23,899 nucleotides of DNA from Prevotella sp. UBA3294 (GTDB taxonomy: Bacteria; Bacteroidota; Bacteroidia; Bacteroidales; Bacteroidaceae), in NCBI GenBank assembly GCA_002361535.1, contig DETG01000035.1, forward strand, positions 6,514 to 30,412. The letters are read 5' to 3'. The notes beneath the pieces were generated by a model. It did not search any database. It was not told where the DNA came from and saw nothing but the letters and a program-made list of their open reading frames with translations. The position numbers and the translations under genes are program-made. Each line of letters starts with the position of its first letter. Within the stretch, counting starts at the first letter, position 1. Positions 21,919 through 23,899 of this stretch are shown here, piece after piece.

Positions 21919-23343
21919 TTATTGAAACTCTTTCTGTATCTTCTTCCAGCCCAGACGGTTCATACGGCCACGCCACACCTGTCCATTCTCACCGTTGATG
22001 ATCCAGAGACACCACTGGCTATCTACTGCTGCAGCATGGGGGATATCACTCCCTTTCAATGTGCTTGGCAGGGGATAAAGGGTACTGCCCTTCCAGGTAA
22101 TACCTCCGTCTTTGCTTACATATGTCGTCGAGAAAGGGCTTTCCGTACAAGCTCCCACGCCCGATCCACCGAAAGCGATCAGCACATCGTCGTAGGCAAA
22201 CATGGAGAGATTTGCCAAAGATGGAAGCCTATATAGTGAATGATCCGACGGAGTATAGTAAGTCCATTCGTTCGCCTGAAGAGGATTGGAGAGGTCTTCC
22301 AACTTCCCCCACACCATGGCATAGCCATCATTGGGCCAAGTTGTCAAGTCGCGGTTACCCGTTACGATGACACGTTCCACATCGGTATTGGTTTTCAGGG
22401 TGAAGCATGCATAGCTTACAGAACTTTGCGGCAGCCATATTGCCTCATCACCCATTGGCTCTTCGATCCAAGTGGTGCCATTGTCGGCAGAACTCAAAAT
22501 GTTCCCTTCAGCATCCATGCCATAAAGCTTCAGACTGCTGACAGCCAGCAGACGGGTGAGGTGAGGGGCACTTACCGTTATCCATTCCTGTCCGTCGGTA
22601 GAACGCAACAGTTTTTCCTTATCAAGGAGAAAGAGGTTGTTGCCTTGAGCCAGAAGATTCTGATAGGCATCGGCCTCCAAACGATGCTTGAAGTTAAAGG
22701 CCAGAGGGGTGAAATCTGAGCCATCAGACAACAATGTGGCATATCCCACCGTGTATCCGTCTCGCTGGCCGAACACATAAAGATGATCGTTACAAGCCAC
22801 GGCTTTCAACTCTTTCATCCCAGCCAAGGTACTCTGTGCAGCACGTTCCGACCAGTTAAACACCTCCCCTTCTTCTTGATGCACATTGACATGCACCGTA
22901 TAGGCACGGTAGGCCTTTCCGCTATTGGCATAGGCCACCATCTGCCGGGGAGTGGAGAAATCAATAGAGTCGGTGGAAGAATAATATCTCAGTGAGTCAC
23001 TGGTGACACTCTTCAATGCAATGACTCCTCCGTTCTTGGCTGTAACCGTACAGATCACATGAGCCACGTCCGTTCCATAAGGCAACGAGTCGGGGTTATA
23101 GATTTCCCGTTTCTCCTGATCGATATAGAACTGGTAGTCGCTACCTGTAAGCGTGGTGGTATAGGTGCTGTCTGCGCCTTTCGATGAGGTGGTGTGAACC
23201 GTCCTCTTCAATGTTCCCAAGGTAAAGGTGGTAATGGCAGTGTCATCATAATAGATAGTATCATCATCGTCTGATTTCAGACATGACGTACAAACCATGA
23301 CCGCAGAGAACAATATCGCGAAAGGTATCAATATCCTTTTCAT
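21919..23343 (-). CDS. DUF6242-type surface lipoprotein
   Basis: This is a 474-residue lipoprotein of unknown function. The signal peptide MKRILIPFAILFSAVMVCTS is followed by the lipidated Cys21. The next residues LKSDDDD fit the acidic lipoprotein export signal that sends Bacteroidetes lipoproteins to the cell surface. Residues 30-150 form a beta-rich N-domain. Residues from about 165 onward look like a beta-propeller with Asp-box style repeats (LLRSTDGQEWITVS, ILSSADNGTTWIEEP, TYVSKDGGITWKGS), as in sialidase-type or photosynthesis-stability-type propellers. A carbohydrate- or peptide-binding role is possible. The frame extends to 23508 but crosses the promoter box, so ATG 23343 is chosen. 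It is the first gene of the envelope cluster. Confidence 0.85.
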   Translation of the reverse strand: MKRILIPFAILFSAVMVCTSCLKSDDDDTIYYDDTAITTFTLGTLKRTVHTTSSKGADSTYTTTLTGSDYQFYIDQEKREIYNPDSLPYGTDVAHVICTVTAKNGGVIALKSVTSDSLRYYSSTDSIDFSTPRQMVAYANSGKAYRAYTVHVNVHQEEGEVFNWSERAAQSTLAGMKELKAVACNDHLYVFGQRDGYTVGYATLLSDGSDFTPLAFNFKHRLEADAYQNLLAQGNNLFLLDKEKLLRSTDGQEWITVSAPHLTRLLAVSSLKLYGMDAEGNILSSADNGTTWIEEPMGDEAIWLPQSSVSYACFTLKTNTDVERVIVTGNRDLTTWPNDGYAMVWGKLEDLSNPLQANEWTYYTPSDHSLYRLPSLANLSMFAYDDVLIAFGGSGVGACTESPFSTTYVSKDGGITWKGSTLYPLPSTLKGSDIPHAAAVDSQWCLWIINGENGQVWRGRMNRLGWKKIQKEFQ

Positions 23344-23360
23344 GAGCTGTCGCTTTTGAT

Positions 23361-23412
23361 TTTTGGGTGCAAATTTACTTAGAAATCCGCAAAAAGGAAT
23401 CCTTTTGGGTGC
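23361..23412 (-). promoter_or_regulatory. Candidate promoter/operator region of the DUF6242 gene
   Basis: TAAATTTG on the minus strand (23370-23377) fits the -7 box and lies 27 bases before ATG 23343. A matching -33 TTTG is not present at the usual distance. The region holds a palindrome AAAAGGA-A-TCCTTTT (23392-23406) close to where the -33 box should be, and TTTTGGGTGC twice (23361-23370 and 23403-23412). The weak -33 and the symmetric sites suggest control by an activator or repressor. Confidence 0.4.
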
Positions 23413-23533
23413 TTTATTATGCAAATTATTCATTAAATGAGCATTTTTTAAGTTATGTTTAGAGTTGAAAGAGAAAAGGGAATAAAAAAAGAGGACGATA
23501 TGAATCACTCACTTCGGCCTCCTGAAAACAATT

Positions 23534-23629
23534 CTAACGGATGTTGGTGTTAACTAAACATACAATACTAAGTATTGTCATAACAAGTGTTACCGCCAGC
23601 ATCATAGTTGTTTCAAAATCTAATAACAT
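23534..23629 (-). CDS. 31-residue predicted small membrane protein
   Basis: This short gene begins MLLDFETTMM and continues with a hydrophobic helix, AVTLVMTILSIVCLV (residues 12-26), ending NTNIR. The layout is one short acidic N-terminus, a single membrane segment and a terminal Arg. It has the parts of an independent gene: a Bacteroidetes promoter (23703-23734), a 5' stem-loop at the predicted transcript start, and AAGG 8 bases before ATG 23629. A T-rich run (23483-23490) follows on the minus strand. No family was recognised. Small single-span proteins often regulate or stabilise larger membrane complexes; the target here is unknown. Chance is unlikely to give all these parts in order, but the peptide is unproven. 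Confidence 0.6.
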   Translation of the reverse strand: MLLDFETTMMLAVTLVMTILSIVCLVNTNIR

Positions 23630-23682
23630 AATCTTTACCTTAAATCTATCAAACTACTAACCTATGAAAACTTTAACGGAAT

Positions 23683-23698
23683 GCATTCTCCCGAATGC
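23683..23698 (-). promoter_or_regulatory. 5' stem-loop of the small-protein transcript
   Basis: On the minus strand GCATTC-GGGA-GAATGC is a perfect 6-bp stem with a GNRA-type loop. The predicted transcription start from the -7 box at 23703-23710 is about 23696-23698, so the message would begin with this hairpin. Such 5' stems are known to protect short mRNAs from decay. Confidence 0.55.
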
Positions 23699-23702
23699 GA
23701 TG

Positions 23703-23734
23703 CAAAGGTACATAGTTTCTGACAATCCCACAAG
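23703..23734 (-). promoter_or_regulatory. Promoter of the small membrane protein gene
   Basis: On the minus strand CTTG (23731-23734), 20 bases, TACCTTTG (23703-23710) matches the Bacteroidetes consensus. The spacing equals that of the promoters at 3605-3636, 3664-3695 and 11974-12005. The leader to ATG 23629 would be about 66 bases. Confidence 0.75.
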
Positions 23735-23808
23735 CAGGAAAGATTATTTTTTTAATTATTTAGTGTATTTTTGACCTAAATCAAAAGTTCGGGCCTGTAG
23801 AAACAGAA

Positions 23809-23843
23809 ATCGGCCCAGGTGCCCTATTTGCACCTGAGCCGAT
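23809..23843 (-). terminator. Terminator of the gene at the right edge
   Basis: The arms ATCGGC+CAGGTGC (23809-23822) and GCACCTG+GCCGAT (23830-23843) pair over 13 bp with one mismatch and a 7-base loop. On the minus strand it is followed by TTCTGTTTC and lies 26 bases after the stop codon at 23869-23871. It separates that gene from the small-protein unit. Confidence 0.7.
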
Positions 23844-23868
23844 GATTGTATCCGTGAAGGACCGAATC

Positions 23869-23899
23869 TTAGAGTTTCGGACCTGCAGCGACGAGAGCC
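23869..23899 (-). CDS. pckA: C-terminal end of a gene, probably ATP-dependent PEP carboxykinase
   Basis: Only ten codons are visible, ending ALVAAGPKL and a TAA stop (23869-23871). This tail is recalled as that of ATP-type phosphoenolpyruvate carboxykinase, which interconverts oxaloacetate and phosphoenolpyruvate and is central to carbon dioxide fixation to succinate in Bacteroidetes. With so few residues the assignment rests on the tail alone. The terminator directly downstream confirms that a real gene ends here. Confidence 0.5.
   Translation of the reverse strand, partial: ALVAAGPKL

Follow-up and report, generated by a model that had tools for sequence, protein, structure and literature searches.

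The window analyzed in this study is a stretch of 23,899 nucleotides from Prevotella sp. UBA3294 (assembly GCA_002361535.1, contig DETG01000035.1). On its minus strand, downstream of a gene read in the same direction whose product ends in ...ALVAAGPKL (by eye) and upstream of a gene encoding a DUF6242 protein, lies a compact unit with a promoter, a 5′ hairpin, a leader, a 31-codon reading frame, and a terminator-like hairpin (Table 1). A first-pass annotation had described it as a small transcription unit for a membrane peptide, and the promoter, the 6-bp GNRA hairpin, the AAGG, the ATG, and the frame were all found on the minus strand where it had placed them. Its statement that the unit is insulated from the upstream gene also holds, as the 14-pair terminator stem is present. 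The promoter had been called a consensus one: TAnnTTTG is kept in relatives, whereas CTTG, at −33, appears by eye to be poorly conserved. Likewise, the AAGG named as ribosome-binding site does precede the ATG of the 31-codon frame in the window, but it belongs to a start context common to other Prevotella genes. Two features go beyond that annotation, namely, a palindrome upstream of the promoter and a likeness of the leader to the small RNA FopS.

The hairpin at the 3′ end of the unit, whose stem has mismatches, was absent from the mechanical terminator scan. Folding of the whole RNA gave a stability that was not unusual (z = −0.95), and structure was therefore assessed by covariation.

Table 1. 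Coordinates of the unit and of its neighbors within the window
Feature	Position	Strand	Remark
Terminator of upstream gene, 14-pair stem	23809..23843	−	Insulates unit
CRP/FNR-type palindrome TTGATTTAGGTCAA	23771..23784	−	60 bases before −7 box
Promoter: CTTG (23734-23731), 20 bases, −7 box TACCTTTG (23710-23703)	23703..23734	−	
5′ hairpin, perfect 6-bp, GCATTC-GGGA-GAATGC, GNRA loop	23683..23698	−	
Leader segment resembling FopS seed, TTTTCA..TAGTA..TAGATTTAAGGT..AAAGATT	23630..23670	−	
Leader motif AGGTTAGTAGTT	23663-23652	−	Inside FopS-seed-like segment
Conserved core TAAGGTAAAGATTATGTTATTA	23621..23642	−	Covers ribosome site, start codon, and initial codons
31-codon ORF, ATG at 23629, stop at 23534	23534..23629	−	MLLDFETTMMLAVTLVMTILSIVCLVNTNIR*
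Terminator-like hairpin, GUGA(U) cap, then T-run	23484..23522	−	Unit's own 3′ end
DUF6242 gene downstream of unit	21919-23343	−	Own −7-like TAAATTTG (by eye)

The reading frame and the RNA across Prevotellaceae

A protein search of 60 relatives, 36 of them in the genus, detected the peptide in 16 of these 36 (its own genome included), always as a 31-residue frame; in the 24 genomes outside the genus searched for the peptide, one weak match containing a stop (E = 0.04) was not counted. A 16-row peptide profile matched 208 of 398 genus genomes at E ≤ 0.05 (192 at E ≤ 0.001), and a covariance model of the leader matched 276 of 398 at E ≤ 0.01, of which the 36 above 1e-4 may be chance. Because both the profile and the leader model match many genomes of the genus, the unit is not a chance arrangement. 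Comparison of both lists gave 68 genomes that have a leader match of 1e-4 or better, yet no peptide match. Scanning named genomes for the 22-mer core returned at least 118 loci; the taxa among the matches listed were Prevotella, Prevotellaceae, Xylanibacter, Leyella, Hoylesella, Marseilla, some entries named "Bacteroidales bacterium," and one "uncultured bacterium." Xylanibacter, Leyella, Hoylesella, and Marseilla are genera split from Prevotella. An exact core search of viral contigs found no unit.

We collected 243 loci, which gave 180 distinct rows from Prevotellaceae: 120 with an intact frame (116 distinct ORF sequences), 5 with an altered in-frame peptide, 50 that lack the frame, 4 truncated at the end of the locus, and 1 that is spurious (L036). 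This collection favors conserved cores: no locus enters through the 22-mer scan without the core, a row was admitted on 20 of 27 core bases, and the best model matches were fetched. Furthermore, we deliberately fetched loci from genomes that lacked a peptide match (31 loci) and from others that had one (5 loci; G403, G390, G085, G366, and G379). Because genomes lacking a peptide match were fetched on purpose and the scan depends on the core, the ratio of 120 to 50 is not a population frequency. Three loci with an intact peptide, a diverged leader, and the palindromic box at 61 bases (L010, L016, and L017) stand outside the 180 rows. The usual site of the unit is between pckA and the DUF6242 gene. 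The downstream (DUF6242) cluster was found in 132 of 180 rows; the upstream (pckA) cluster supplied the next gene in 78 and the second gene in 9, with many loci ending too early. Pfam searches with one member per cluster identified PEPCK_ATP and DUF6242 at the Prevotella illustrans locus (L198) and DUF6242 in the window.

With frames of 29 to 33 codons admitted as intact, all 120 intact rows had a frame of exactly 31 codons. In 415 moderately diverged pairs of these rows, pN/pS was 0.31 for codons 6 to 31, and the same pairs yielded 0.30, 0.73, and 1.84 at frame offsets 0, 1, and 2. By this evolutionary evidence, the 31-codon frame is under purifying selection and appears to be a translated reading frame. 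Its product is probably a membrane peptide: the predicted hydrophobic segment spans residues 9 to 26, with a hydropathy of 2.71 in the window peptide and a median of 2.65 in the 120 peptides, and a charge falls within it in 6 of 120.

The first-pass reading of an unrecognized peptide gene is thus upheld as to a self-contained unit with a single hydrophobic segment and 120 intact frames whose synonymous bias appears only in the right frame, but the RNA is also kept without the peptide, in 50 rows. These rows lack the frame through early stops or deletions, the extreme being L129, in which the core is joined straight to the terminator. Among cultured species, Prevotella communis E15-14 has an intact frame and Leyella stercorea DSM 18206 has none. 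Stops or frameshifts in relatives had been named as grounds for rejecting the gene; they occur in these 50 rows, yet promoter, hairpins, and core are kept there. The 5′ GNRA hairpin remains in 50 of 50, the GNRA-capped terminator in 48, and the palindromic box with its spacing in 44. When mapped on a quick tree of the downstream proteins (131 in all, 97 from rows with the frame and 34 from rows without it), presence and absence of the frame needs 12 changes, at least 6 of them forced by supported branches, a count that cannot tell gain from loss. In L145 and L146, remnants of the frame favor loss.

Several clades of rows appear to share a lesion (L139/L141/L142, L123/L133, L028/L130, L121/L112, and L126/L134/L136). 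In these clades, the core is kept at 21 to 22 of 22 bases and AGGTTAGTAGTT at 12 of 12, with agreement of the neighboring protein down to 60 to 77% in the more distant pairs; this conservation is somewhat overstated because fetching favored conserved cores. Since relatives without the peptide retain the RNA, the RNA seems to be kept in its own right.

To keep the core out of the selection, we also took the 40 loci that protein search had yielded on its own. In this set, TAAGGTAAAGATT immediately precedes the ATG in 32 loci, AGGT(T)TAGTAGT occurs within 60 bases in 30, codons 2 and 3 are each TTA in 37, and codon 4 is GAT in 39. The pS of codons 2 to 5 was 0.00, compared with 0.44 for codons 6 to 31, in 74 close pairs from this set, and 0.07 compared with 0.65 in 774 pairs. 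In the collected rows, which were chosen partly by core, pS over codons 1 to 5 was 0.0035. The 17 sites picked elsewhere that match AAGGTAAAGATTATG with no more than one mismatch each begin a reading frame, a long one at 14 sites and one of 28 to 30 codons at 3. As the context AAGG[TA]AAAGATTATG is widespread at starts, part of the core invariance may reflect a strong start site only.

Both hairpins covary. The 5′ hairpin is present in 171 of 180 rows, with loops of GTGA (103), GAGA (48), GGGA (10), GCGA (7), and others (3), and its pair 3 is TA in 77, AT in 64, and GC in 24. The GNRA-capped terminator hairpin is present in 172 of 180, with loops of GTGA (129), GCGA (22), GAGA (20), and GGGA (1), and its pair 10 is GC in 60, CG in 52, and TA in 44. 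When the letters were re-dealt as a control, which relatedness inflates, pair 3 of the 5′ hairpin formed in 76 of 171 rows on average, compared with 169 observed; for terminator pair 10, the average was 72 of 172 and the observed number 166. The other pairs gain less over shuffling; terminator pair 4 gains nothing (167 versus 167), and the bases at terminator position 5 are mismatched (30 of 172). The inner pairing is partly a matter of construction, because the search sought GNRA loops with inner pairs formed.

A palindrome upstream of the promoter and related units

All 16 peptide loci from the 60 relatives carry TTGAnnnnnnTCAA, centered 67 to 68 bases before the −7 box. In 168 of the 179 true rows, the conserved box, TTGAYnTAnRTCAA, precedes the −7 box by 59 to 62 bases; these are 115 of the 120 intact rows, all 5 altered ones, 44 of the 50 frame-less ones, and all 4 truncated ones. 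Of the 11 other true rows, which have no exact box, three are on contigs too short to show it and L125 is one change off; six of the 11 are frame-less. Two frame-less groups, one comprising L114, L115, and L224 and the other L028 and L130, also lack a palindrome at the usual place. The half-site of the palindrome fits the FNR consensus, TTGAT-N4-ATCAA.

In the genome of the window, TTGAnnTAnnTCAA together with a −7 box at 45 to 75 bases occurred at 9 sites, compared with 0 in the control, and 5 of the 9 are at 60 to 61 bases. The palindrome thus stands at a fixed distance from several promoters of its own genome, as in a CRP/FNR-type regulon. Besides the unit itself, one such promoter (L076/L149, G000:C26:55381) precedes a long leader and then a 27-residue hydrophobic frame, and another (L078/L151, L151 2570, G000:C68) precedes an apparently non-coding stretch, seemingly a small RNA, with a GUGA-loop terminator (by eye), upstream of ileS. 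The L151 box is flanked by ileS (by eye) and by a divergently oriented gene for a DcuA/DcuB transporter (Pfam). Two more promoters with the box at 60 to 61 bases serve frames of 121 residues (L080/L152) and 101 residues (L081/L082). An apparently non-coding sister (L387, about position 1501, minus strand; G000:C96:19831) has its box at 61 bases, lacking the central TA, and carries the AGGTT motif (AGGTTAGTAGT) twice. An 18-base string of this sister was found again in 12 of the 24 genomes searched, identically in 11 and with one change in G076, with inspection covering L387 and G076. In other Prevotella, the box stands at 60 to 61 bases before hydrophobic frames of 25 (L311), 29 (L307), and 30 (L343) residues. 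These three frames appear unrelated in sequence by eye, and that of L307 occurs twice in tandem.

The genome encodes five proteins with a cyclic-nucleotide domain; L155 is an encapsulin shell protein, and the CRP/FNR-type L153, L154, L156, and L157 are candidate regulators. The best solved relative of L153 is 2gau, which is CrpPg according to the accessible text of PMC12040651; that of L156 is 1zyb, and L154 resembles L153 by eye. The accessible text of PMC10994844 describes MasB of B. thetaiotaomicron as a small RNA activated by the CRP-family protein Cur on carbon limitation. The consensus proposed for Cur, TATGTTnTAnAACATA (in the part of PMC6989115 available to us), is unlike TTGAYnTAnRTCAA, and Cur was rejected as regulator, as the palindrome's place holds the latter sequence and not a Cur box. 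HcpR/SnoA was set aside as well, as the accessible part of PMC13370916 concerns a different locus.

Likeness to FopS and interpretation of the unit

FopS of Bacteroides has the seed consensus GTGTTTTTCATAGTATTAGATTTAAGGTTAACAAA, pairs with SusC start regions, blocks translation, and represses SusC transporters (PMC11697453, accessible text). The R1′ seed in the single-stranded 5′ part and binding of RbpB are further marks of the family. FopS and GibS (RF04319 and RF04182; PMC11697453 and PMC7366714, accessible text) appear to resemble our unit in the leader series TTTTCA..TAGATTTAAGGT..AAAGATT and, like it, have a terminator at the end. In our unit, a GNRA hairpin stands ahead of the leader, the motif is longer, and a reading frame is present; we found no mention of a reading frame of FopS in the accessible text of these two papers. 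In P. pectinovora, positions 1869-1935 of L220 (minus strand) are FopS by RF04319 (74.9 bits, gathering threshold 56). This copy contains GTGTTTTTCATAGTATTAGATTTAAGGTTAACAAA exactly and shares the box geometry of our unit, with the box at 60 bases.

The window leader aligns with the FopS seed as TTTTCA..TAGTA..T..TAGATTTAAGGT..AAAGATT, with insertions, at a score of 37 that none of 3,000 shuffles reached. The likeness is confined to the sense strand, on which 176 of 180 rows score at least 20, compared with 0 on the antisense strand. Over 179 units, scores ranged from 16.5 to 45.5 with a median of 35, from gapped alignments of AT-rich sequence. The number of shuffles (of 3,000) that reached the score was 0 for L003 and L076, 1 for L009, 5 for L129, 16 for L007, 21 for L029, 55 for L012, and 107 for L387. 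Unrelated leaders score 14 to 24 (L080, 24; L081, 18.5; L077, 14), and L151 has no likeness to the seed (P about 0.6). At the level of family models, RF04319 and RF04182 gave no match at E ≤ 1 in positions 22900 to 23899 of the window, where Rfam gave nothing relevant, and the FopS model gave none at E ≤ 5 in L002, L129, and L138, with the P. pectinovora RNA (74.9) as positive control. The seed match ends where FopS reads AAAGATTGG and the window unit reads AAAGATTATG, which holds the start codon.

Searches for antisense targets with AACTACTAACCT (60 genomes), CATAATCTTTACCTT (60 genomes, 1 mismatch), and AACTACTAACCTAATGAA (24 genomes, 3 mismatches) gave no recurring target. The 17 fetched non-self CATAATCTTTACCTT sites are start sites of other genes, and the 11 fetched non-self AACTACTAACCT sites have no gene in common; neither set was accepted as targets. 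Some fetched sites carried the sense motif in other transcripts, and the one AACTACTAACCTAATGAA match read in its surroundings was L387. We think that the RNA may repress uptake messages because the complement of its leader, CCUAUGAAAA or CCUAAUGAA, looks like a start region, as with FopS.

From these comparisons, we consider it likely that the unit is a dual-function small RNA of Prevotella that would both act as an RNA and encode the 31-residue peptide. A CRP/FNR-family protein would act at the palindrome to activate the promoter, with carbon or energy state as the likely signal. The predicted transcript would begin with the GNRA hairpin and end at the GNRA-capped terminator, measuring about 210 bases here and down to about 130 where the frame is gone. 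Through its single-stranded leader, in which a FopS-like seed comes with UUUUCAUAGG or AUUCAUUAGG, the RNA may pair with start regions of other mRNAs (...CCUAUGAAAA... or ...CCUAAUGAA...), probably those of sugar-uptake genes of the SusC type, and so prevent them from being translated. It would also serve, in most collected units, as the message for the 31-residue peptide, which may insert into the inner membrane and act in the same response. Possible, and rather doubtful as a whole, is an evolutionary extension in which a FopS-type small RNA gained a start codon behind its seed (AAAGATTGG becoming AAAGATTATG) and later shed the frame several times while the RNA stayed, within one CRP/FNR-type regulon of related small RNAs and unrelated membrane peptides of 25 to 30 residues whose regulator would command both outputs. 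Alternatively, the unit and FopS may have converged. If the dual-function reading of the unit is right, a Prevotella FopS RNA would be tied to a definite CRP/FNR-type operator, and the data would point to a Prevotella regulon of small RNAs and tiny membrane peptides.

The unit might instead be an ordinary gene for a small membrane protein, its promoter, hairpin, and start site kept for expression and its frame-less copies the product of recent decay. The coding selection on the frame, the occurrence of the core as a general Prevotella start context, and the pattern searches that gave no target all agree with such a gene. We nevertheless regard it as unlikely, since clades that seem to share a lesion, though diverged to 60 to 77% at the neighboring protein, keep the core, the AGG motif, the hairpins, and the terminator, since synonymous sites of codons 2 to 5 are almost unchanging, and since an apparently non-coding sister has the same motif and box. 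Conversely, a pure regulatory RNA in which the reading frame arose by chance would account for the 50 rows that keep the RNA without the frame, but 120 frames of equal length with a strong in-frame synonymous bias make this the least probable of the explanations weighed here.

A hydrophobic peptide made from a stable structured RNA and restrained by an antisense RNA would be a type I toxin, and 31 residues with one hydrophobic segment behind a 5′ hairpin are in keeping with one. The mostly single chromosomal place between pckA and the DUF6242 gene, the absence from viral contigs by exact core, the CRP/FNR-type box, and the retention of the RNA without the peptide render a toxin very improbable. 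We give equally little credence to a leader peptide with an attenuator for the downstream DUF6242 gene: the terminator does lie between the unit and the same downstream gene in 132 of 180 rows, but it stays where the frame is gone, and the downstream gene appears by eye to have its own TAAATTTG-type −7 sequence.

Among small RNAs of Prevotellaceae, SrcF of Segatella copri affects nutrient uptake and PUL genes (El Mouali 2024, as reported in the accessible text of PMC11814227), and it may be the same RNA as our unit, or another. A literature search for dual-function RNAs in Bacteroidota or Prevotella found none of Bacteroidota among the titles listed, most subscription papers being outside its reach. 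If our reading of the unit as a dual-function RNA is true, such an RNA exists in Bacteroidota, with several lineages lacking the peptide, and these lineages would offer a ready comparison of the roles of the RNA and the peptide.

In enterobacteria, which form part of another phylum, SgrS/SgrT and AzuCR are Hfq-based RNAs with a dual function in sugar metabolism. SgrT is missing in some species that keep SgrS. We know of no homology between our unit and SgrS/SgrT or AzuCR. VcdRP of Vibrio cholerae likewise combines, in one RNA, a base-pairing part and a 29-residue protein, with CRP control and a role in carbon metabolism; it differs in that CRP represses vcdRP and in that the protein, VcdP, binds citrate synthase (PMC8672173).
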